Assembly: GCF_004361815.1 (NCBI RefSeq)
Contig: NZ_SNWA01000001.1
Span: 3,968,001 to 4,032,000, forward strand
Length of the DNA stretch: 64,000 nt
Direction: 5' to 3'
Origin: Paraburkholderia sp. BL10I2N1
Lineage (GTDB): Bacteria > Pseudomonadota > Gammaproteobacteria > Burkholderiales > Burkholderiaceae
Shown here in pieces: positions 1,804 to 37,680 of this stretch. The position numbers and the translations under genes were made by a program. The notes beneath the pieces are model-generated. The model did not search any database. It was given only the letters and a program-made list of their open reading frames with translations, and was not told the origin of the DNA. The first letter of the stretch is position 1, and each line of letters starts with the position of its first letter.

Positions 1804-4401
<2,598 letters not shown>

Positions 4402-26672: not shown

Positions 26673-27299
26673 TCAGGCGTTTTCCAGCACGATGCCTTCG
26701 ATGATGTTCGCCACATCCTCGCACTTGTCGGTGATCGTCTCGAGCAATTCGTAGATTGCCTTGAGCTTGATCAGGGTCTTCACGTTGTCTTCCTCGCGGA
26801 AGAGCTTCGACATCGCGGAACGCAGCACGCGATCGGCTTCCGATTCCAGCCGATCGATTTCCTCGCACGCCTTCAGGATCTGTCTTGCCTGCTTCATGTC
26901 GGAGAGCATGCCGACGGCTTGCTGCACGCGCTCCGATGTCGCCGTGCAGATGTGCGCCAGTTGGCTCGCTTCGGACGTCACCGCCTGCACGTCATAGAGC
27001 GAAATAGCCGTCGCGACGTCCTCCATCAGGTCGAGGATGTCGTCCATCGTCGTGATCAGCTTGTGGATTTCGTCGCGATCAAGCGGCGTGATGAAGGTCT
27101 TGTGCAGCAGATCGATGGCTTCGTGCGTGAGTTTGTCAGCCGCTTTTTCGGCCTTCTGCACGTTCTGCTTGTGAATCTCGGCGTCCGACAGGTTATCGAT
27201 TAGCAGCTCGAGTTCGCGGCTCGCCGAGACAATGCAATTTGCGTGCGCATTGAAAATATCAAAGAACTTGCCCTCGGTGGGCATGAAACGACCGAACAT
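26673..27299 (-). CDS. DUF47 (PhoU-like) Pit accessory protein
   Basis: 208 aa all-helical PhoU-like protein: MFGRFMPTEGKFFDIFNAHANCIV, LTHEAIDLLHKTFITPLDRDEIHKLITTMDDILDLMEDVA, EIDRLESEADRVLRSAMSKLFRE. Members sit next to Pit transporters and are thought to modulate phosphate uptake. Here the stop is 1 base from the pit start, a strong context argument. Upstream of the start on the minus strand there is a possible -10 TACAAT (27348-27353) but no clear -35 or Pho box. Confidence 0.9.
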   Translation of the reverse strand: MFGRFMPTEGKFFDIFNAHANCIVSASRELELLIDNLSDAEIHKQNVQKAEKAADKLTHEAIDLLHKTFITPLDRDEIHKLITTMDDILDLMEDVATAISLYDVQAVTSEASQLAHICTATSERVQQAVGMLSDMKQARQILKACEEIDRLESEADRVLRSAMSKLFREEDNVKTLIKLKAIYELLETITDKCEDVANIIEGIVLENA

Positions 27300-27416
27300 T
27301 GGGATCCCGGAAATTGGTCACGGTTGTGGCTGACATAAAGCCGCAGCATTGTACCGTTCCGGAACCAGCGTCGCATTTTTGAAAGCATCGTTACAACAGC
27401 CCGCGCAGATATGGCT

Positions 27417-28802
27417 TTACTCGCTGTAGAAATTCTGCGCACCGGCAAAATTATCGAATTTCGTGAATTGGCCATGGAACGTGAGCCGAACGGGTCCGAT
27501 CGGACCGTTACGTTGTTTGCCGATGATAATTTCTGCGGTGCCCTTATCCGGGCTGTCCGGGTTGTAGACCTCGTCCCGATAAATAAAGAGAATCACGTCC
27601 GCGTCCTGCTCGATAGCACCCGATTCACGCAAATCCGACATCACCGGCCGCTTGTTGGGCCGCTGCTCAAGACCGCGGTTCAGCTGAGACAGCGCGATCA
27701 CCGGGACGTCGAGTTCCTTCGCCAAACTCTTCAGTGATCGGGAGATTTCCGAAATTTCAGTCGCCCGGTTTTCACCTTGCGACGATCCGCTCATCAGTTG
27801 GAGGTAGTCGATGATGATGAGACCCAGTTTGCCGCATTGACGCGAAAGCCGCCGCGCGCGCGAACGAAGTTCCATCGGATTCAGGCCACCGGTTTCGTCA
27901 ATGAAAATCTGCGCCTCGCTCATCTTCTGCACGGCGTGCGTCAGCTTCGGCCAGTCTTCGTCCGTCAGACGCCCGGTTCGCATGCGGTGCTGATCCAGCC
28001 TGCCGACCGAACCGAGCATACGCATCGTCAGCTGGGTACCCGGCATTTCCATCGAAAACACGGCGACCGGAAGACCATATTCGACCGCCACGTATTCGCC
28101 GACGTTCATCGAAAACGCGGTCTTACCCATCGACGGCCGCCCAGCGACGATGATCAGTTCGCCACCGTGCATGCCCGACGTCATCCTGTCGAGATCAACG
28201 AAGCCCGTCGGCGTGCCAGTCACATCGCTTGAGTTAGCCGTGTGGTACAGGGTGTCGATCCGTTCCACCACCTGCGTCAACAATGGCCCGATTTCGAGAA
28301 AGCCCTGAGTGCCGCGTGCGCCGTCTTCGGCAATCGAAAACACTTTCGATTCAGCCTCGTCGAGCAGTTGCCGGACTTCCTTGCCCTGCGGGTTGAAGGC
28401 ATCGGCGGAAATCTCGTCGGCGACCGAAACGAGGCGCCGCAACACCGCTCGATCCCGCACGATTTCCGCGTAGCGGCGGATATTGGCGGCGCTCGGCGTG
28501 TTTTGCGCGAGCGCGTTCAGATACGCGAGGCCGCCGACCTCCTCCGCCTTGCCGGACGTGCCGAGCGCTTCGTACACAGTGATCACGTCGGCCGGACGCG
28601 TTGCCGCGATCAGCTTGCCGATATGCTCGAAGATGATCCGATGGTCGTAGCGGTAGAAATCGCTCTGAGACAGGAAATCCGCGATGCGGTCCCATGCAGC
28701 GTTATCGAGCAACAAGCCGCCGAGCACGGACTGCTCGGCCTCGATCGAGTGCGGCGGGACTTTCAGCGATTCGAGTTGGGGATCTTTCGACGGTGCGTTC
28801 AT
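27417..28802 (-). CDS. dnaB: Replicative DNA helicase DnaB
   Basis: 461 aa ring helicase that unwinds DNA 5'-3' at the replication fork. N-terminal DnaB domain: VPPHSIEAEQSVLGGLLLDNAAWD. The RecA-like C-terminal domain carries Walker A AGRPSMGKTAFSMN, VFSMEMPGTQLTMRML, Walker B LGLIIIDYLQLM, and the arginine-finger region LSQLNRGLEQRPNKRPVMSDLRESG. It lies downstream of the rpsF operon but is separated from it by a terminator, so it probably has its own promoter. Confidence 0.97.
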   Translation of the reverse strand: MNAPSKDPQLESLKVPPHSIEAEQSVLGGLLLDNAAWDRIADFLSQSDFYRYDHRIIFEHIGKLIAATRPADVITVYEALGTSGKAEEVGGLAYLNALAQNTPSAANIRRYAEIVRDRAVLRRLVSVADEISADAFNPQGKEVRQLLDEAESKVFSIAEDGARGTQGFLEIGPLLTQVVERIDTLYHTANSSDVTGTPTGFVDLDRMTSGMHGGELIIVAGRPSMGKTAFSMNVGEYVAVEYGLPVAVFSMEMPGTQLTMRMLGSVGRLDQHRMRTGRLTDEDWPKLTHAVQKMSEAQIFIDETGGLNPMELRSRARRLSRQCGKLGLIIIDYLQLMSGSSQGENRATEISEISRSLKSLAKELDVPVIALSQLNRGLEQRPNKRPVMSDLRESGAIEQDADVILFIYRDEVYNPDSPDKGTAEIIIGKQRNGPIGPVRLTFHGQFTKFDNFAGAQNFYSE

Positions 28803-28853
28803 GGAGACGAATTATCGGGCAAATGCGGTTATCAGGAAACCGGAACGCGGAAA

Positions 28854-28893
28854 CAAAAAAACGGGAGCCGGTTGCCCGACTCCCGCTTTTTTT
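28854..28893. terminator. Bidirectional terminator between rplI and dnaB
   Basis: CGGGAG...CTCCCG stem with A7 on the left and T7 on the right, so it can terminate in both directions. On the minus strand it closes the rpsF-priB-rpsR-rplI operon, 34 bases after the rplI stop. Confidence 0.85.
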
Positions 28894-28926
28894 GCCAGAA
28901 ACGACCTGGCGAATACTGCCCGGTAC

Positions 28927-29379
28927 TTAGACGTGTTCGCCCAGCACCGACACCGTCACGTCGACTAGAACATCGGTGTGCAGCGAAATCTGCACCGGAT
29001 GATCGCCGACCATTTTCAGCGGGCCTTCCGGCAGACGCACTTGAGCCTTTTCCACTGTGAAGCCTTGCTTGACCAGTGCGTCAGCGATGTCGGCGTTTGT
29101 CACCGAGCCGAACAGACGGCCGTCGACGCCAGCCTTCTGGCCAATCTGAACGGTCGAGCCGGCCATCTTTTCGCCTTGAGCCTGAGCGGCTGCCAGCTTT
29201 TCAGCAGCAACCTTTTCCAGTTCTGCACGGCGGACTTCGAATTCAGCGATCGCTTCCTTCGTTGCACGGCGAGCCTGCTTTTTCGGGATCAGGAAGTTAC
29301 GTGCGTAACCGTCCTTCACCTTGACGATGTCGCCGAGATTGCCCAGGTTGACGACTTTTTCGAGAAGAATGATTTGCAT
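28927..29379 (-). CDS. rplI: 50S ribosomal protein L9
   Basis: 150 aa: [36 protein letters not shown], the L9 N-terminal domain, followed by the long connecting helix rich in Ala/Glu/Lys and the C-terminal domain ([23 protein letters not shown]). AAGGAG lies ahead of the ATG. L9 binds 23S rRNA domain V at the base of the L1 stalk. It is the last gene of the rpsF operon. Confidence 0.98.
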
Positions 29380-29406
29380 TCGGATGCTCCTTGTTGCGTC
29401 GTCGGG

Positions 29407-29682
29407 TTAGGCCTTGTGCTGGTCGGTGTACGGCATGAGCGCGAGGAAACGTGCGCGCTTGATTGCCGTATCCAACTGGCGTTGATAGTGCGACTTCGTA
29501 CCCGTAAGACGCGCCGGCGTGATCTTGCCGTTTTCGCCGATGAAGTCCTTCAGCGTTTCGAGGTCCTTGTAGTCGATCTGGTCGACGCCAGCGGCCGTGA
29601 AACGGCAGAACTTCTTGCGCTTGAAGAGCGGATTTTGTTGCTGACGACGCTTGTCGAATTTCTTACCAGTCGGGCGGGGCAT
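29407..29682 (-). CDS. rpsR: 30S ribosomal protein S18
   Basis: 91 aa. The start [28 protein letters not shown] is used; the frame stays open further upstream but overlaps priB. The core is [26 protein letters not shown], then [24 protein letters not shown]18 pairs with S6 on the platform of the 30S subunit. The start is 2 bases after the priB stop. Confidence 0.98.
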
Positions 29683-29684
29683 GT

Positions 29685-29984
29685 TCAGTCCTTTCCAATG
29701 TCCTGCAATTCTGTGATGTGAAATACCAGGGTTCTGGCGTTGCGGCTCTTTTTTGCCAGGAAGCCGGTGAAGAGCGTTTCGACGCCCATCGCACAGCTTT
29801 CCAGCTTGCCGCTCGCCTCGCCGGCGGCCACCGCCGACATCGTCAGTTCGACCTGCCGTGCAATACCGGCTTCGACGACTTCGGTGCGGTGATGCAACGT
29901 ACAACCTGCAATCGGAACGCCAGCGGGGGTATACCGCACCGGTTCGCGTTCAACGACGCTGGCCATGAGTTGCAGCCTGTTCAT
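29685..29984 (-). CDS. priB: Primosomal replication protein N (PriB)
   Basis: 99 aa OB-fold single-stranded DNA-binding protein of the PriA restart primosome: [40 protein letters not shown], then [22 protein letters not shown]. Its position between rpsF and rpsR is the standard beta/gamma-proteobacterial arrangement, and the gaps are 46 and 2 bases. Confidence 0.95.
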
Positions 29985-30030
29985 GAGAGCGACGCGAGTT
30001 TTCCGTAACCTGGTAGCTTAAATAACTGTA

Positions 30031-30405
30031 TTAAGCCTGCGCTTCGGATGCTTGCGTAGCAGCCGACTTCTTGGCTTCTTCGCGCTGCACTTCCTTCATC
30101 ATCGGCGACGGACCGGTTTCGGCCTTCTTCATCTTGACGATGAGGTGGCGCAGAACCGCGTCGTTGAACTTGAACGCATGTTCGAGTTCGTCGAGCGTAG
30201 CCTGGTCGCACTCGATGTTCATGCAGACGTAGTGAGCCTTCGCGAGTTTCTCGATCATGTAGGCCAGTTGGCGACGGCCCCAGTCTTCGATGCGGTGGAT
30301 CTGGCCACCGTGCGACGTGATCGTGCTCTTGTAACGCTCGATCATAGCGGGCACCTGCTCGCTCTGATCGGGATGCACGATAAAGACGATTTCATAATGA
30401 CGCAT
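30031..30405 (-). CDS. rpsF: 30S ribosomal protein S6
   Basis: 124 aa starting [29 protein letters not shown], with AAGGAG ahead of the ATG. The frame is open 30 codons upstream, but that part covers the leader hairpin. Core: [35 protein letters not shown]. The C-terminal ~20 residues are a Lys/Glu/Ala-rich tail. It heads the rpsF-priB-rpsR-rplI operon. Confidence 0.98.
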
Positions 30406-30426
30406 ACACACTCCTTGTGGATTAAA

Positions 30427-30454
30427 GCCACCCGGGCGTCGGAACCGGTGTGGC
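30427..30454 (-). promoter_or_regulatory. rpsF leader hairpin, candidate S6:S18 binding RNA motif
   Basis: On the minus strand a hairpin with GCCAC/GTGGC base pairing encloses ACCGG, TTCCGACG and CCGG, 21 bases before the rpsF start codon. Leaders of rpsF in many bacteria contain a hairpin with conserved CCG bases that mimics the 16S site of the S6:S18 complex and mediates autoregulation. The position and the CCG content fit; the fold was judged by eye only. Confidence 0.45.
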
Positions 30455-30641
30455 AAGTGAGAAGCCGGAGAGTGTAACCCGAATGGGGTCAGCACGCAAG
30501 GTGTGCGTTGAATTTCCGTGCTGATTCGGCCGTGTTTTCAACGGCTTAGGAGCCAAAGCGGCCCCGGTCGCGCGCAAAGGCCACGCTTTTCCGTGACGCC
30601 AGCCCCAGGCACCGCCTGCCACACTGGCTGCCGGACGCCGG

Positions 30642-31493
30642 TCAGCCCGGCATTTCGCCCCGCGCGCCGCCGTGCAGACGGGCGTTCAGCGCCACCTTGA
30701 ACGCCGCCAGCGAGTCAGGCGCGGCATCCGTGATCGCCCACCACACCATGCCGTCGTCACGCCAGCGGGCGAGCGAGTATCCGTCGCGAACAACCGTCGA
30801 CGCTGGACTTTCTGCACCCGGGTCGGTCTCGGGGAAGACGTACACGTCGAGGACGTGCTTGCGGTAATGGTACGTCAGCACCGCCACCCGGCGATGTCCG
30901 ACGTAGTCCAGCCGTCCGCCCACCAGCGTAAAGCCGCTCGCGGCCAGATCCTCGACCGGCGGTGCATAGTCGAGCCGCCCGTTGAACCACGGCTTTACTG
31001 TGTGCTGGTCGGAGGAAACGACATCGATCTCCCGCCCCGACAACTGCGCTCGCACATGGCTCGCGACGAGTTCATCGACAAGCGGCCCCGCGTCGGCCGG
31101 ACGTCGCAGCGTCAACGTGACACCGGCGACCACGGCGCACAGCGCGATCAGCAGCGTGGCGAGCCAGCCGGCGCCGACCGTGTCGCCCGCCGGCGCGCCG
31201 AATATGCCGCCACCCAGCCCGCGCGCGCCGCCAAACAAAGGGAACCGCCAACGTCGGCGCCGCTGCGGCAACGAGGTCGGCGGCAGATCGGCGACGATGC
31301 GAGCCCGCAGCGCATCTGACGCGCGATGATAGTTCGCCTGACGGACGTTACGGCTAACCGCCCGAACGATCCCCGCCTCGCGACGGCATGCTTGGCACCC
31401 GTCGATGTGCTGCTGGACGCGCCGGTCGTCAGCCGCCGAAAGTTCGCAATCGGCGCTCGCATCAAGCAGAGGACGCGCTTCCTTACAGTCCAT
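30642..31493 (-). CDS. Zinc-finger anti-sigma factor, membrane-bound
   Basis: 283 aa. The start MDCKEARPLLDASADCELSAADDRRVQQHIDGCQACRRE gives a ZAS domain with the His29-x3-Cys33-x2-Cys36 motif that grips an ECF sigma factor. A single membrane helix lies at ~110-129 (WLATLLIALCAVVAGVTLTL). The remaining ~150 residues would be periplasmic, ending GFTLVGGRLDYVGHRRVAVLTYHY and WWAITDAAPDSLAAFKVAL, similar to other anti-sigma sensor domains. The start overlaps the sigma-factor stop by 11 bases. It probably holds the sigma factor at the membrane until an envelope signal releases it. Confidence 0.88.
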   Translation of the reverse strand: MDCKEARPLLDASADCELSAADDRRVQQHIDGCQACRREAGIVRAVSRNVRQANYHRASDALRARIVADLPPTSLPQRRRRWRFPLFGGARGLGGGIFGAPAGDTVGAGWLATLLIALCAVVAGVTLTLRRPADAGPLVDELVASHVRAQLSGREIDVVSSDQHTVKPWFNGRLDYAPPVEDLAASGFTLVGGRLDYVGHRRVAVLTYHYRKHVLDVYVFPETDPGAESPASTVVRDGYSLARWRDDGMVWWAITDAAPDSLAAFKVALNARLHGGARGEMPG

Positions 31494-32415
31494 CCGGCGC
31501 CTCCCCGTTCGTGCGGGCCACTCCGCCGCTCTGGTCGGCGAGGCCATCCGGCGCGCGTCCCCGGAGCGAGGACCGTGTACCTCCCGGCTGCCCCGTCTGC
31601 GCGCCGGACAAACCGGTCTGCGCGTCAGGCGCAGTTCCTGTTGCGCCGCGCACAGGTGCTTGCGATCGAGCCGCGTCCCATTCATCCCGGCCCCGGCCAT
31701 CGTGTCCGCACGAAGCATCGAGTGGCAATCCGGCCTGGTTGCCATTCACGTCGACGTCGTCGGCGTGGCTGCCTGGCTGCCGCGCTGCCGGGGCGCCTTC
31801 ATCATTCCCTGCTGCGGCGCCCTTTCGCTGCCGCGCCGGTCCGGACTCGCGCGCCTCGAGCGCGGTCAACGCCGCGGCCAGCTTGCGACGGCCGCGCGCA
31901 AGCCGCGACATCACCGTGCCGACCGGCAGATCGGCAATCGTCGCGATCTCCCGATAGCTCAACTCCTCCAGCTCCCGCAGAATCAGCACCTCGCGATACT
32001 CGACCGGCAACCGCTCCAGCGCGGCGTGCACGAGTCGGCTGTCTTCCTCGCGGATCGCCAAGGTCTGCGGATCGACGCTCGCGGGACTCCAGCCGTCGAT
32101 GGCGGCCTCTTCCTGCGAGTCGTCGAATCCGCCCACTTCGTGCGCCGACGCACGCCGGCGCCACTCCGTGTACCACGTGCGCCGCACGATCGCGAGCAGC
32201 CACGGGCGAGCACTGTCGCCACGGAAGGTATCGAAGAAGCGGAACGCGCGCATAAAGGCTTCCTGAACGACGTCGTCAGCGTCGCTGGCATTGCCGCACA
32301 ACCAGCGCGCAAGGTTGTAGGCGGCATCGAGATGCGGTAGCGCCAGTTGCTGGAACCGTCGACTGCGCGCGGCCTGGTCGTACGTTCCAGCAGCGTTTCT
32401 TTCGGTCTCACCCAC
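31483..32415 (-). CDS. ECF RNA polymerase sigma factor with long C-terminal extension
   Basis: 310 aa from a GTG with GGGAGGG seven bases upstream; the longer open frame upstream crosses the promoter and is rejected. Sigma2: LPHLDAAYNLARWLCGNASDADDVVQEAFMRAFRFFDTF, residues ~26-65. Sigma4: LERLPVEYREVLILRELEELSYREIATIADLPVGTVMSRLARGRRKL, ~133-180. ECF factors normally stop near 190 residues; this one continues ~120 residues of hydrophilic Gly/Ala/Arg/Asp-rich sequence up to the overlap with the anti-sigma gene. The tail may be disordered or a by-product of the overlap. Confidence 0.88.
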   Translation of the reverse strand: MGETERNAAGTYDQAARSRRFQQLALPHLDAAYNLARWLCGNASDADDVVQEAFMRAFRFFDTFRGDSARPWLLAIVRRTWYTEWRRRASAHEVGGFDDSQEEAAIDGWSPASVDPQTLAIREEDSRLVHAALERLPVEYREVLILRELEELSYREIATIADLPVGTVMSRLARGRRKLAAALTALEARESGPARQRKGAAAGNDEGAPAARQPGSHADDVDVNGNQAGLPLDASCGHDGRGRDEWDAARSQAPVRGATGTAPDAQTGLSGAQTGQPGGTRSSLRGRAPDGLADQSGGVARTNGEAPDGL

Positions 32416-32444
32416 GCAGGCCCTCCCGGCTTTACGGCTGCAAT

Positions 32445-32469
32445 ACCGGCCATCCGTCAAGTTTATTCC
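32445..32469 (-). promoter_or_regulatory. Probable autoregulated ECF promoter of the sigma/anti-sigma operon
   Basis: On the minus strand GGAATAAA (32462-32469) is followed by 12 bases and CCGGT (32445-32449). The GTG start of the sigma gene is 30 bases downstream. The same elements at the same spacing occur on the opposite strand in this spacer. Confidence 0.7.
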
Positions 32470-32501
32470 CGCTTTCTCGCGCGGCAGGCACAAATAAATC
32501 C

Positions 32502-32526
32502 GGAATAAAATTCGCCTCGCGCCGGT
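32502..32526 (+). promoter_or_regulatory. Probable ECF-dependent promoter of the metallophosphoesterase-cupredoxin operon
   Basis: GGAATAAA (32502-32509), 12 bases, CCGGT (32522-32526). It is identical in both elements and in spacing to the promoter on the other strand, which is what an ECF sigma factor controlling itself and its neighbours would need. The start codon is 33 bases further on. Confidence 0.7.
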
Positions 32527-32559
32527 CGACAGGAAATGCTCACCCCATGAGGAGCCGCC

Positions 32560-33456
32560 ATGACGACCCGCCTGAACCAGCTCAAACGGCGCGATTTTTT
32601 GCGCCTTGCCGCCTTCGGCGGCGCAGCCCTCGCGTCCGCCCTGCCCGGCTGGACGTACGGGCGCGACGACGATTTCTTCTTCGTGCAGCTCTCCGATGCC
32701 CACTGGGGTTTCGAAGGCCCGGCCGTCAATCCCGACGCGAAGGGTACGCTGCCCAAAGCGATCGCCGCGGTAAACGCTCTACCCACCGCGCCGGATTTCG
32801 TCATCTTCACCGGCGACCTGACGCACACCACCGACGACACCGCCGTGCGCCACGAGCGCATGCGCCAGTTCCAGTCGATCGTCAGCAAGCTCAACGTCAA
32901 GCCGCTCTACCTGATGCCGGGCGAGCACGACGCGAGCCTCGACAACGGCGCGGCGTATCGCGAGCATTTCGGCGACACGCACTACACGTTCGACCATAAG
33001 GGCGTGCATTTCATCACGCTCGACAACGTGTCCGATCCAGCGGGCAAGGTCGGCGCCGAACAGATCGCGTGGCTTGCCGCCGATCTGGCGCAGCAGCCTG
33101 AACACGCGCGCATTGTCGTGTTCACGCACCGGCCGCTCTTCGATCTCGCGCCGCAGTGGGACTGGGCGACGCGGGACGGCGCACAGGTCATCGACGTTCT
33201 TGCGCAGCACTACAACGTCACCGTGTTCTACGGTCACATCCATCAGGAGAATCATGCGATGACGGGAAACATCGCGCACCACTCGGCGCGCTCGCTGATG
33301 TTTCCGCTGCCCGCGCCGGGGTCGCAGCCAAAGCGCCTGCCGGTGCCGTGGGACGCGTCCGCGCCTTATCGGGGGCTCGGCTGGCGGCAGATCGAAGTGG
33401 GCGGGACGGCCGGCGCGTTTGCGCTCAATGAAATGCCGATCCGCGACATCTCGTGA
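32560..33456 (+). CDS. Tat-exported metallophosphoesterase
   Basis: 298 aa. The ATG follows GAGGAG. A twin-arginine signal peptide is evident (LKRRDFLRLAAFGGAALASALPG). The calcineurin-like phosphoesterase motifs appear in order: QLSDAHW (Asp and His metal ligands), FTGDLTHT, MPGEHD (in place of GNHD), FTHRPLF and YGHIHQENH. It should be a periplasmic di-metal phosphoesterase; the substrate is unknown. The stop overlaps the upstream region of the cupredoxin gene, whose start is 11 bases later. Its promoter matches that of the divergent ECF sigma operon. Confidence 0.85.
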   Translation: MTTRLNQLKRRDFLRLAAFGGAALASALPGWTYGRDDDFFFVQLSDAHWGFEGPAVNPDAKGTLPKAIAAVNALPTAPDFVIFTGDLTHTTDDTAVRHERMRQFQSIVSKLNVKPLYLMPGEHDASLDNGAAYREHFGDTHYTFDHKGVHFITLDNVSDPAGKVGAEQIAWLAADLAQQPEHARIVVFTHRPLFDLAPQWDWATRDGAQVIDVLAQHYNVTVFYGHIHQENHAMTGNIAHHSARSLMFPLPAPGSQPKRLPVPWDASAPYRGLGWRQIEVGGTAGAFALNEMPIRDIS

Positions 33457-33467
33457 GGAGACCGACC

Positions 33468-33857
33468 ATGCACGCAAACGCAAGCCTCGGGGATCAAACG
33501 CGCGTCACGCGTCGCCACTGGTTGATGCTCGCAGGTGCAGGCGCGGTCACGGCGCTGATCCGCTTCGATGCCAAAGCTGCGGAGCCGCGCGTCATCAAGG
33601 TTCATGCGCGCAGATTCACGTTCACGCCGAACCGCATTACGCTCGCGCCTCACGAACAGGTCATCTTCGAAGTCACTGCTGAGGATACCGTGATGGGGTT
33701 CTCGGTTCCGCAGTTCGGCGTGCGCGCCGACGTGCCGCCGGGCGCGACCGTGCGTGTGCCGGCTCAGGCCGCCGAGGCGGGCAACGTCGAATTTCTGTGC
33801 GACATCTTCTGCGGCTCGGGGCACGAAACGATGAACGGCACAATCGTCGTCGGCTGA
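33468..33857 (+). CDS. CuA-like cupredoxin-domain protein, exported
   Basis: 129 aa. The ATG at 33468 is preceded by GAGGAG; an in-frame GTG at 33453 is an alternative. The signal peptide has TRRHWLMLAGAGAVTALIRF, a possible Tat signal, with likely cleavage near AKA-AEP. The C-terminal motif CDIFCGSGHETM (Cys111, Cys115, His119, Met122) is the Cys-x3-Cys-x3-His-x2-Met pattern of the dinuclear CuA site in cytochrome oxidase subunit II. The first CuA histidine, expected where subunit II reads His-Ser-Phe/Trp before the Pro-x-Phe-Gly-Val motif, is Met76 here (VMGFSVPQFGVRAD). It probably binds copper with altered ligands, as a metallochaperone or electron carrier. Confidence 0.8.
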   Translation: MHANASLGDQTRVTRRHWLMLAGAGAVTALIRFDAKAAEPRVIKVHARRFTFTPNRITLAPHEQVIFEVTAEDTVMGFSVPQFGVRADVPPGATVRVPAQAAEAGNVEFLCDIFCGSGHETMNGTIVVG

Positions 33858-33897
33858 AGGATGGGGCGGGCGTGATGCGAGGCTGCGGCAGCCCGCG

Positions 33898-34815
33898 TCA
33901 CGCCACGCCGCTCCAGTAGCCCGGACGCGCGTACACCTCTTTCAGATAGTCGATGAAGTACCGCACCCTTGCCGGCACATAACGCTGCTGCGGATAGACG
34001 GCGAGGATGTCGTAATCGGGCAGTGCGAATTCGTCGAGGACGGTTTCGAGTTCGCCACGTGCAATCTGCTGCTGCACCTCCCAGGTCGAACGCCAGCCGA
34101 GACCGAGCCCTTCCGCCACCCAGCGGTGCAGCAGTTCGCCGTCGTTGCAGTCGAGCGTGCCGCCGACGCGCACCGTCGCGAGCTTGCCGTTGCGTCGAAA
34201 GTACCAGCCGCGGTTCTGGCCGCCCTGCAGGTTGAACGCGAGACAGTTGTGCTGTGGAAGGTCTTCGAGCGTCTTTGGCCGCCCGTGCCGGCGGAAATAT
34301 TCGGGCGTGCCGCACACCACCCGCCGGTTCGACGCGAGCTTCACCGCGACGAAATTCGGATCGACCGCCCCGCCAATCCGAATCGACAGGTCATAGCCTT
34401 CGCGCACGAGATCGACCACGCGATCCGTCAGATTGAACGAAAGCTGCAGTTCCGGCTTGTCGGACAAAAACGCGGGCGCGAGCGGGGCAACATGTTTGCG
34501 GCCAAAAGCCGCCGGCGCCGAGACGATCAGGTGCCCCGTCACTGCGCGCCGTCCGGCCGTCAGTTCGTTTTCCGCCTGATCCCATTCGGTGAGAAGCCCG
34601 CGGCACCGCTCGAGAAATGCCGCGCCTTCTTCGCTGACCACGAGCCGCCGGGTCGAGCGATACATCAGCTTCACGCCAAGCCGCTTCTCGAGCGCGTCGA
34701 TGCGCCGGCCGAGAATCACCGGCGACACGCCCTCTTCCAGCGCGGCGGAGGCAAGGCTGCCCGCGTCGGCGACGCGCACGAAGGTCTCGATCTGCTTGAA
34801 GCGGTCCATGGTCAT
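33898..34815 (-). CDS. LysR family transcriptional regulator
   Basis: 305 aa. N-terminal winged HTH (MDRFKQIETFVRVADAGSLASAALEEGVSPVILGRRIDALEKRLG), then a periplasmic-binding-like effector domain (GHLIVSAPAAFGRKHVAPL; VREGYDLSIRIGGAVDPNFVAVKLASNRRVVCGTPEYF). This subgroup (CrgA/AaeR-like) often controls divergently transcribed genes. The neighbour read the other way is the gcl-hyi-glxR operon, so it is a candidate regulator of glyoxylate use. It is convergent to the cupredoxin gene. Confidence 0.85.
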   Translation of the reverse strand: MTMDRFKQIETFVRVADAGSLASAALEEGVSPVILGRRIDALEKRLGVKLMYRSTRRLVVSEEGAAFLERCRGLLTEWDQAENELTAGRRAVTGHLIVSAPAAFGRKHVAPLAPAFLSDKPELQLSFNLTDRVVDLVREGYDLSIRIGGAVDPNFVAVKLASNRRVVCGTPEYFRRHGRPKTLEDLPQHNCLAFNLQGGQNRGWYFRRNGKLATVRVGGTLDCNDGELLHRWVAEGLGLGWRSTWEVQQQIARGELETVLDEFALPDYDILAVYPQQRYVPARVRYFIDYLKEVYARPGYWSGVA

Positions 34816-34933
34816 CTCCAGCCTTGCCTGGCGGTGGTGGCAGCAAACGCCCGGTCATCCCGCGCCTGATGGGCCCCACCGCATTCAGTACTTTTTGTTT
34901 CGAAATAAGCGACCTGAACGGATCTTATCAAAC

Positions 34934-34952
34934 CTTTAGGTGAAGCTTAAAG
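34934..34952. promoter_or_regulatory. Inverted repeat in the LysR-gcl divergent spacer
   Basis: CTTTA-N9-TAAAG, 59 bases before the gcl start. An AT-rich TTTCGAAA palindrome also lies at 34898-34905. Either could be the LysR-type binding site; the motif is short, so chance is possible. Confidence 0.35.
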
Positions 34953-35010
34953 TGCCTCTCAACAGCCTTCACCGGCGATTCCAGGCATTCCAGACATTGA
35001 GGAGACAACC

Positions 35011-36786
35011 ATGGCCAAGATGAGAGCCGTCGACGCAGCCGTACTCGTGCTCGAAAGAGAAGGCATCGATACTGCGTTCGGTGTCCCGGGCGCCGCGATC
35101 AATCCGTTCTACTCGGCGATGCGCAAGGCCGGCAATATCAGCCACGTGCTGGCGCGCCACGTCGAAGGCGCATCGCACATGGCCGAGGGCTATACGCGGG
35201 CCGCGCCGGGCAATATCGGCGTGTGCATCGGCACGTCGGGCCCGGCGGGCACCGACATGATCACCGGCCTCTACTCCGCCTCCGCCGATTCGATTCCGAT
35301 TCTCGCGATCACCGGCCAGGCGCCGCGCGCGCGTCTTTACAAGGAAGACTTCCAGGCCGTCGATATCGAATCGATCGCCAAGCCCGTGACGAAGTGGGCT
35401 GTCACCGTGCGTGAGCCGGCGCTCGTGCCGCGTGTGTTCCAGCAGGCCTTCCATCTGATGCGCTCGGGCCGCCCGGGTCCGGTGCTGGTCGATCTACCGA
35501 TCGACGTGCAACTCGCCGAAATCGAGTTCGACATCGACACGTACGAGCCGCTGCCGGTCTACAAGCCCGCGGCCACCCGCAAGCAGATCGAAGCCGCGCT
35601 CACGCTGCTCAACGATTCCGAGAGGCCGCTGATCGTCTCCGGCGGCGGCGTGCTCAACGCGGCGGCGGAAGCCCTGCTCGTCGAGTTCGCGGAGACCGTC
35701 GGCGTGCCAGTGATTCCGACGCTGATGTCGTGGGGCGCGATTCCCGACGATCATCCGTTGATGGCCGGCATGGTCGGTCTGCAGACCTCGCACCGCTACG
35801 GCAACGCAACGATGCTCGCCTCTGACTTCGTGCTGGGCATCGGCAACCGCTGGGCGAACCGTCATACGGGCAGCGTCGAAGTTTATACGAAGGGCCGCAA
35901 GTTCGTGCACGTCGACATCGAGCCGACGCAGATCGGGCGCGTGTTTGGTCCGGACCTCGGCATCGTGTCGGACGCGAAGGCGGCGCTCACGCTCTTCGTC
36001 GAAGTGGCGCGCGAATGGAAAGCAGCCGGCAAGCTCAAGGACCGCAGCGCCTGGGTCGCGGACTGCCAGCAGCGCAAGCGCACGATGCTTCGCAAGACGC
36101 ACTTCGATAACGTGCCGATCAAGCCGCAGCGCGTCTACGAAGAGATGAACCAGGTGTTCGGCCGCGACACGTGCTATGTGAGCACGATCGGTCTGTCGCA
36201 GATCGCCGGTGCGCAGTTTCTGCACGTGTTCAAGGCGCGCAACTGGATCAACTGCGGCCAGGCCGGCCCGCTCGGCTGGACGATTCCTGCTGCGCTCGGT
36301 GTACGCGCTGCTGATCCGCAACGCCCGATCGTCGCGCTCTCCGGCGACTACGACTTCCAGTTCATGATCGAAGAACTGGCAGCCGGCGCGCAGTTCAACC
36401 TGCCGTACGTGCATGTGGTGGTGAACAACTCGTACCTCGGGCTCATCCGCCAGGCGCAGCGCGCGTTTGACATGGACTTCTGCGTGCAGCTCGCATTCGA
36501 CAACATCAACGCACCGGAAGTGAACGGCTATGGCGTCGATCACGTCGCGGTGGCCGAAGGTCTCGGCTGCAAGGCTATCCGCGTGTTCAAACCGGAAGAG
36601 ATCAAGCCGGCGCTGCAGAAGGCGCAGTCGATGCTGTCCGAGTTCAATGTGCCGGTGATCGTCGAAGTGATTCTCGAGCGCGTGACCAACATCTCGATGG
36701 GCACGGAGATCGATGCGATCAACGAGTTCGAAGAACTGGCCGAAAGACACGAAGACGCGCCGACCGCGATCAGCGCGCTCGACTGA
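35011..36786 (+). CDS. gcl: Glyoxylate carboligase
   Basis: 591 aa ThDP/FAD enzyme that joins two glyoxylates to tartronate semialdehyde with loss of CO2. The sequence closely follows E. coli Gcl: [51 protein letters not shown]. Val51 stands in place of the glutamate that activates ThDP in related enzymes, as in E. coli Gcl. The ThDP-binding motif is [17 protein letters not shown]...[14 protein letters not shown] precedes the ATG. It heads the gcl-hyi-glxR operon and is divergent from a LysR regulator. Confidence 0.97.
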
Positions 36787-36792
36787 ACCTTC

Positions 36793-36814
36793 AGGCGGCC
36801 CGAACGGGCCGCCT
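36793..36814 (+). other. Intercistronic hairpin between gcl and hyi
   Basis: AGGCGGCCC / GGGCCGCCT, a perfect 9-bp stem with a GAAC loop, starting 7 bases after the gcl stop. No T-run follows, so it is more likely a processing or stability element than a terminator. Confidence 0.6.
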
Positions 36815-36870
36815 CCAGCCGAAACCGGCCTAATCCCGCTTAACTGACCGACCAGCGAGACTTACGCACC

Positions 36871-37680
36871 ATGCCGAAATTTGCAGCCAACCTGACCATG
36901 CTGTTCAACGAAGTCCCGTTCCTCGGCCGCTTCGCGGCCGCAGCGGACGCGGGCTTCAACGCCGTCGAATTTCTCTTTCCGTACCCGTACGGGATCGCTG
37001 AACTGGCCGAGCGTCTGCAGCAGAACCGTCTGAAGCTCGTGCTGCATAACCTGCCGGCCGGCAACTGGGAAGCGGGTGAACGCGGCATTGCCTGTCTGCC
37101 GAATCGTGTCGCCGAATTCCAGGAAGGTGTCGGCCGTGCAATCGAATACGCGAGGGCGCTGAATGTGCCGCAGTTGAATTGCCTCGTCGGCATTCCGACG
37201 GCAGGCATCGATGCCGACAAGGCGCGCGCCACGATCGTCGACAACCTGCGCTTCGCTGCGGACGAACTGAAGAAAGAAGGCATTCGCCTCCTCGTCGAGC
37301 CGTGCAACTCGTACGACATTCCAGGCTTCGCGCTGAACCGCTCATCGGAAGGCCTCGACGTGATCCGCGCAGCCGGCTCGGACAATCTCTTCCTGCAGTA
37401 CGACATCTATCACATGCAGCGGATGGAAGGCGAACTCGCGGCGACCATCCGGAAGAACCTGGCATCGATCGCGCACATCCAGCTCGCCGATAACCCCGGC
37501 CGCAACGAACCGGGCACCGGCGAAATCAACTACCCGTTCCTGTTCGACCTGCTCGATTCGCTTGACTACGAAGGTTACGTCGGCTGCGAATACAAGCCGC
37601 GCACGACAACCACCGAGGGCCTCGGCTGGATCCAGCGCATCGCCGGCCAGACGCGCGGCGCGGCGCACATAGCAGCCTGA
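36871..37680 (+). CDS. hyi: Hydroxypyruvate isomerase
   Basis: 269 aa TIM-barrel sugar isomerase of the Hyi/OtnI family. It interconverts hydroxypyruvate and tartronate semialdehyde. Key segments: MPKFAANLTMLFNEVPFLGRF, FNAVEFLFPYPYGI, LLVEPCNSYDIPGFALN (metal-binding Glu), LFLQYDIYHMQRMEGEL (Asp-x-x-His), HIQLADNPGRNEPGTGEINY, and YVGCEYKP. OtnI (2-oxo-tetronate isomerase) is a close relative, but the gcl/glxR context favours Hyi. Confidence 0.92.
   Translation: MPKFAANLTMLFNEVPFLGRFAAAADAGFNAVEFLFPYPYGIAELAERLQQNRLKLVLHNLPAGNWEAGERGIACLPNRVAEFQEGVGRAIEYARALNVPQLNCLVGIPTAGIDADKARATIVDNLRFAADELKKEGIRLLVEPCNSYDIPGFALNRSSEGLDVIRAAGSDNLFLQYDIYHMQRMEGELAATIRKNLASIAHIQLADNPGRNEPGTGEINYPFLFDLLDSLDYEGYVGCEYKPRTTTTEGLGWIQRIAGQTRGAAHIAA

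Follow-up and report, generated by a model that had tools for sequence, protein, structure and literature searches.

ECF sigma factors are a main route of the bacterial envelope-stress response, and to our knowledge both the regulon and the inducing signal are unknown for many of them. Promoters read by these factors usually carry -35 boxes of the GGAA type. In the actinobacterial SigR/SigH-RsrA system (ECF12), a zinc-finger anti-sigma factor is combined with promoters in which a -35 box of the GGAAT type is followed by a -10 box reading GTT. The locus described here, which lies in a 64 kb window (the whole stretch of DNA analysed) of a Paraburkholderia genome of 9.2 Mb in four contigs, shares the zinc-finger anti-sigma factor and the GGAAT-type -35 box with this system and differs from it in the -10 element, which reads nGGT. 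Among solved structures the window sigma factor was best matched by a chain named SigH/SigE, and its anti-sigma factor matched the RsrA model weakly. Membership of the sigma factor in SigR/SigH (TIGR02947) was rejected at 97.1 bits against a cut-off of 251.55, as was that of the anti-sigma factor in RsrA (TIGR03988) at 34.2 bits against 62.5. By score, the sigma factor is a member of NCBIfam NF009185 (PRK12533), with 347.1 bits against a cut-off of 248; the description of this family names no promoter or function.

Most ECF sigma factors autoregulate, and the conservation of sequences upstream of their genes has been used to derive promoter motifs (Rhodius et al. 2013, PMC3817407). The present locus resembles the autoregulated systems described there in the presence of sigma regions 2 and 4, an adjacent anti-sigma gene and a putative upstream promoter of its own class; the strings 'GGAA', 'CGGT' and 'Burkholderia' are all absent from the main text of that article. 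Our analysis of the sequence indicates that the spacer upstream of this sigma gene very probably holds two divergent promoters of the adjacent ECF sigma factor (31483-32415), one serving the sigma/anti-sigma genes leftwards and the other a metallophosphoesterase (MPE) and a cupredoxin gene rightwards.

Organization of the locus and the probable twin promoter elements

The anti-sigma and ECF sigma genes on the minus strand are divergent from the MPE and cupredoxin genes on the plus strand (Table 1). The anti-sigma gene overlaps the 3' end of the sigma gene (31483..32415, minus strand), and an anti-sigma match adjoins the sigma gene in most of the divergent loci. Sigma-70 regions 2 and 4 are both present in the window sigma factor (PF04542, PF08281, PF04545). 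About 120 residues follow region 4 in this protein (region 4 ends at about residue 180 of 310; 31483-31875), and its alignment to many relatives ends at about residue 185-200. In a scan of genome contigs the closest matches of the window MPE came mostly from Paraburkholderia. The N-terminus of the enzyme, judged by eye, is Tat-like (KRRDFLRL), and weak matches to Rv0805 and to the phosphohydrolase 2dxl/3d03 were obtained among PDB structures. The cupredoxin gene, whose start overlaps the stop of the MPE gene, encodes RRHWLML close to the N-terminus of its product and is present in 45 of the 80 best MPE loci. The CuA signature C-x3-C-x3-H-x2-M is kept in the window and in the relatives L006-L061. 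The presumed position of the first copper-ligand histidine of CuA proteins is occupied by methionine in the window protein. Of the 44 relatives with a residue there, 39 likewise have methionine and five (L043, L044, L045, L057, L058) have histidine. No Rfam family was detected in 27000-37000 and no sigma-70-like promoter in 30500-34000.

The spacer between the sigma and MPE genes comprises 144 bases (32416-32559), one fewer than in the original prediction, which had also described GGAATAAA-N12-CCGGT on both strands some 30 bases before each start codon. Both boxes and the 12-base spacing indeed match exactly, the minus strand carrying GGAATAAA-CTTGACGGATGG-CCGGT (32445-32469, read from 32469 to 32445) and the plus strand GGAATAAA-ATTCGCCTCGCG-CCGGT (32502-32526). 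The distance from the end of the -10-like box to the start codon is 29 bases for the sigma gene (GTG, 32415) and 33 bases for the MPE gene (ATG, 32560).

Table 1. Genes and putative promoter elements of the divergent sigma-MPE locus (positions in the window).
Feature	Position	Strand	Remarks
Anti-sigma factor gene	30642..31493	-	zf-HC2 N-terminus, H-x3-C-x2-C; Pfam PF13490, E 2.9e-8; HIDGCQAC motif
ECF sigma factor gene	31483..32415	-	GTG start, 310 aa; Sigma70_r2, Sigma70_r4_2
Probable ribosome binding site of sigma, GGGAGGG	32422..32428	-	direct reading of the sequence
-10-like element CCGGT, sigma promoter	32445..32449	-	nGGT kept at fixed distance
-35-like element GGAATAAA, sigma promoter	32462..32469	-	upstream site of at least 11/13 in 44/47 sigma orthologues of the genus
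Stretch between the -35 boxes, 32 bases	32470..32501		AAATAAAT adjoins the MPE promoter
-35-like element GGAATAAA, MPE promoter	32502..32509	+	GGAAT conserved on the MPE side
-10-like element CCGGT, MPE promoter	32522..32526	+	strict GGAAT-N16-CGGT site in 33/46 spacers
Probable ribosome binding site of MPE, AGGAG	32550..32554	+	direct reading of the sequence
Metallophosphoesterase (MPE) gene	32560..33456	+	ATG start; PF00149, E 4.8e-11
Cupredoxin gene	33453..33857	+	PF13473, PF00116; CuA-like CDIFCGSGHETM motif

Conservation in orthologous spacers

The main weight for reading the twin as promoters lies in its conservation in relatives. The scan for MPE genes in genome contigs provided the best 80 of 102 loci, 45 of which have a divergent sigma homologue and yielded, together with the window, 46 spacers for comparison. 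Loss of the motif from orthologous spacers, on which the original prediction was prepared to be abandoned, is not what these spacers display: the strict pattern GGAAT-N16-CGGT is present on the sigma side in 21, on the MPE side in 33 and on both sides in 15 of the 46. With spacings of 14-18 allowed, the numbers were 22, 33 and 16, against means of 0.33, 0.24 and 0 and maxima of 2, 2 and 0 in dinucleotide shuffles, and the one additional sigma-side site (L029, N18) is incidental. Comparison of spacings from 6 to 26 revealed N16 in 21 loci on the sigma side and 33 on the MPE side, any other spacing occurring in at most two. With paired boxes whose spacing is constant and a -35 box starting GGAA, this set has the features of an ECF promoter.

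The strict site also follows the presence of the sigma gene. It was found, on either strand, upstream of the MPE gene in 38 of the 45 relatives with a divergent sigma gene, versus none of 11 close MPEs without a divergent sigma gene and none of 24 distant MPEs, the upstream stretch being 300 bases or whatever the contig offers (fewer than 300 in a few loci). The strict sigma-side N16 site is missing in 25 of the 46 spacers, 14 of which are off by one -10 base while 11 fit worse, and the MPE-side site is missing in 13. The core conserved over the spacers is GGAATA(AA)-N15/16-nGGT with a TGC or GACAG tail; the sequence that follows is often ATTGCAG in sigma-side sites and ATGACAGGC in MPE-side sites. 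Since the sites picked for deriving this core had to have GGAA and CGGTA was favoured, only its remaining columns are independent; the strict counts and the spacing comparison are free of this bias. The exact string of eight plus five bases is narrower than the consensus, to which GGAATA(AA)-N15/16-nGGT corresponds.

Both sites could be scored in 39 of the 46 loci, and the gap between their -35 boxes ranges there from 4 to 48 bases, most commonly 36 (10 loci), 33 (8) or 32 (6). As this gap is variable while the spacing inside each promoter is fixed, the twin elements are best regarded as two separate promoters, which may still share upstream DNA. In Paraburkholderia phosphatilytica (L020, ~3850-3980) two tandem sites on the sigma side accompany one facing the MPE gene.

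The sigma side was also followed across the genus. A sister-sigma match at E<=1e-50 was present in 53 of 58 genus genomes (own genome included), and all 60 matches were inspected. Among the 47 orthologues of the window sigma gene, 44 are preceded by a site that agrees in at least 11 of the 13 box letters, as are all 13 paralogues; mononucleotide shuffles of the same upstream stretches gave an average of about 8/13 and maxima of 9-11. The other three orthologues score below 11/13. An MPE gene lies nearby in at least 16 of the 47, the available stretches differing in length and some covering only 1.5 kb per side. In four congeners (L126, L131, L132, L137) a LysR-type gene directly adjoins the sigma gene, with no MPE-cupredoxin operon in between, and the promoter on the sigma side is retained.

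Specificity of the exact string

Apart from the twin, the 64 kb window holds no GGAATAAA-N12-CCGGT site with up to two mismatches, and with up to three mismatches it holds 16 sites in total against 7.6 expected. Across the whole genome of 9.2 Mb, exact matches are confined to the twin's two places. One mismatch allowed, five places were found versus seven for a reversed control pattern, so that one-mismatch sites alone carry no weight. Shuffling of the spacer gave an identical 8-mer and 5-mer pair on opposite strands at equal spacing (8-20) in 4 of 2000 dinucleotide shuffles, in a test for which the motif was not chosen beforehand, and a looser 6+4 twin in 55 of 500. The twin is unusual in shuffles, yet by itself it is not convincing after the fact.

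Across 97 genus genomes the exact 8+5 string gave 53 matches versus 41 for the reversed control (counted from the table). These matches included 29 new loci (L087-L115); in 25 of them a module gene lies no more than about 1.5 kb away, the exceptions being L088, L094, L099 and L115. With no excess over the control in the own genome at one mismatch and 53 against 41 in the genus, the exact string was rejected as a regulon finder. The original prediction, which had proposed it as a ready motif for this purpose, holds to the extent that the motif leads to module genes in relatives, and fails in that the string is too narrow and has few sites in its own genome.

Further sites and a sister module in the same genome

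The genome-wide search that the original prediction had called for returned only the twin with the exact string and a handful of places with widened patterns. The pattern GGAATAAA-N14-GGT has four places in the genome versus one for its control, namely the twin, C2:1763291 and C1:2378859. The site at C2:1763291 (L135) was retained, as it lies in front of a small gene and the relative of that gene in genome G048 has the site as well, and two one-mismatch sites were dropped, C2:337365 (L133) as lying inside a long open frame and C2:1228576 (L134) as lying inside a candidate open frame. The site at C1:2378859 (L147, 1501-1532) is a near-palindrome with inverted GGAATAAAC...GTTTATTCC near a minus-strand secreted-protein frame, and this inverted site is possibly the promoter of another ECF factor. 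The pattern GGAATA-N17-GTNTTGC likewise gave four places, against none for its control: before the sigma gene, before the MPE2 gene and a small-protein gene of contig 2, and before the start of one small secreted protein (C2:582269). A third pattern, made after the MPE-side tail, matched one place in the genome against none for the control and did not match the window promoter. The regulon defined by the motif is small in this genome, with only a handful of sites.

Contig 2 carries a sister module (L125) consisting of sigma2, anti-sigma2, MPE2 and an amicyanin-like cupredoxin. Its sites have the same spacing, with GTAATAAAA...CGGTCT before sigma2 and GGAATAAAA...CAGTCT before MPE2, and a further divergent site, noted by eye, faces a small ORF. 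The sister sigma factor scores 237 against NF009185, just below the cut-off of 248. As this paralogous module has nearly the same promoters, the motif alone does not name one sigma factor. Two other genomes, G037 (L129, L208) and G047 (L205, L206), show an island, about 30 kb long, in which at least ten promoter sites of the same class stand beside genes for DUF4148 peptides, two genes resembling MPE2, sigma2, a second sigma-like frame and a gene resembling a ferric reductase.

Promoter model in 80 family genomes

A sequence-only promoter model was trained on 58 of 83 candidate rows. Eleven rows were omitted on the sigma side (the near-identical Ralstonia L025, L029, L030, L034 and L061, and also L039, L043, L044, L047, L054 and L058) and 14 on the MPE side (L008, L015, L025, L029, L030, L031, L034, L039, L040, L043, L044, L054, L058 and L061). 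In the own genome, where 150 of 2484 candidates were scored, the model matched the sigma promoter at E 0.003, the MPE promoter at E 1.45 and a place within a gene at E 2.2; this third match (C3:570507), which on the opposite strand falls in a frame that by eye resembles a dehydrogenase, was dropped.

When 80 family genomes were searched under stricter filter settings, with up to 90 candidates being scored in each, the model returned 56 matches at E<=1 in 29 of the genomes, the window MPE promoter (E 1.45) falling outside this set. A module gene follows directly (same strand, -60 to 450 bases) at 49 of the 56 matches: sigma genes at 24, MPE genes at 18, membrane-protein genes at four, DUF4148 genes at two and a small-protein gene at one. 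One of the 24 sigma matches precedes a distant ECF gene of 34% identity. Gene types that are not in the training set account for 19 of the 49, among them 12 MPE2 matches; the seven matches before membrane-protein, DUF4148 and small-protein genes are cross-genome repeats and not blind, because the module list was drawn up in part by inspecting what lies next to motif copies in this genome and in G037. No module gene adjoins the other seven of the 56, two of which lie within the DUF4148 cluster of G129.

A sigma factor of NF009185 above cut-off is encoded in 32 of the 80 family genomes, and a model match was obtained in 26 of these 32 versus 3 of the 48 others (Fisher p 3e-12, kinship ignored). 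The three include G133, whose sigma factor scores just below cut-off and whose match precedes an MPE gene; in G105, one of the 26, the sole match lies away from the module. In the five sampled genomes of genus g12 (G107, G127, G143, G156, G165) the sigma gene and the MPE2-cupredoxin operon are on different contigs, and the operon carries the motif in all five; another contig need not mean another replicon, since some of the assemblies are fragmented. Six sigma-bearing genomes gave no model match. By hand inspection, at a threshold of 8/13 and without shuffles, five of them have weaker divergent twins with -35 boxes 32 bases apart, and G160 (L265) has no recognisable site.

Alternative explanations

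The two GGAATAAA boxes form an 8-base inverted repeat with 32 bases between its arms, and could be conceived as the arms of one operator bound by a dimeric regulator. A gap of 32-33 bases recurs in 14 of the 39 scored loci and the gap of 32 also in genomes with a paralogous MPE (L266-L271), as such an operator would suggest. The constant distance between arms that it calls for is, however, not observed: the gap runs from 4 to 48 bases, whereas each arm keeps a constant distance from its GGT box, and copies for which no opposite-strand partner was reported stand before sigma, MPE2, membrane-protein and small-protein genes. On account of the variable gap this candidate was discarded, and we regard it as very improbable. 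Still harder to credit is a coincidence in which AT-rich boxes merely stand out by chance in a GC-rich spacer. The searches at one mismatch in the own genome and with the exact string in the genus, both little above or below the reversed control, would agree with it; the rarity of the twin in shuffles (4 in 2000), the conservation at a single spacing in orthologous spacers and the position of 49 of the 56 model matches before module genes in 80 genomes speak against it.

A more serious alternative accepts both promoters as real and assigns their recognition, in part or for the most part, to a different ECF factor, such as the sister sigma factor of contig 2, through crosstalk or a cascade. The sister module has sites of its own at the same spacing, all 13 sister loci have an upstream site of at least 11/13, and cascades between sigma factors are raised in the article of Rhodius et al. 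(2013, PMC3817407). Against it, the motif at the MPE gene tracks the adjacent sigma gene, and in each of the five g12 genomes only one family match above 105 bits is listed, yet the sigma promoter and the distant MPE2 promoter both carry the motif. We consider this explanation unlikely on balance, though far from negligible. That the same ECF factor reads both promoters, as originally proposed, is the most likely case; the existence of a sister sigma factor with a very similar motif weakens the exclusiveness of that proposal.

Proposed regulation and significance

For two divergent promoters of the adjacent sigma factor, the computed support covers the sequences, the gene families, the conservation at fixed spacing, the tie to the neighbouring sigma gene and the reappearance of the motif ahead of related operons elsewhere. 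In the simplest account, the sigma/anti-sigma genes would be positively autoregulated and MPE and cupredoxin co-activated. The anti-sigma factor would hold the sigma factor until an envelope signal frees it, upon which RNA polymerase with the sigma factor would bind GGAATAAA as the -35 and (C)CGGT as the -10 element. Leftward transcription of the sigma/anti-sigma operon would then provide positive feedback together with renewed inhibition, and the metallophosphoesterase/cupredoxin operon would be co-activated rightwards from the back-to-back promoter. The twin would in this respect be a further example of the promoters of autoregulated ECF sigma/anti-sigma pairs, an arrangement that is already known.

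A broader scheme may tentatively be proposed, which we hold to be somewhat less probable than its opposite. NF009185-type sigma factors and their paralogues might read one grammar, GGAATA(AA)-N15/16-nGGT with a TGC or GACAG tail, and run a dispersed regulon in Burkholderiales. To this regulon would belong operons for exported phosphoesterases and cupredoxins, a membrane protein with several helices, secreted peptides of the DUF4148 type, a protein of 76 residues and also the sigma factors. The back-to-back pairs, often 32-33 bases apart, might then form a coupled unit sharing one A/T-rich dock for the polymerase alpha subunit.

A motif that was read by eye in one spacer is conserved over Burkholderiaceae and points to a few exported or membrane proteins in the genomes of the family, and the regulon of a widespread sigma family, which has above-cut-off members in 32 of the 80 genomes, is now directly testable. 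The motif also ties an apparently exported phosphoesterase and copper-type proteins to a single regulator, so that copper or periplasmic redox stress may be suggested as a first candidate signal.
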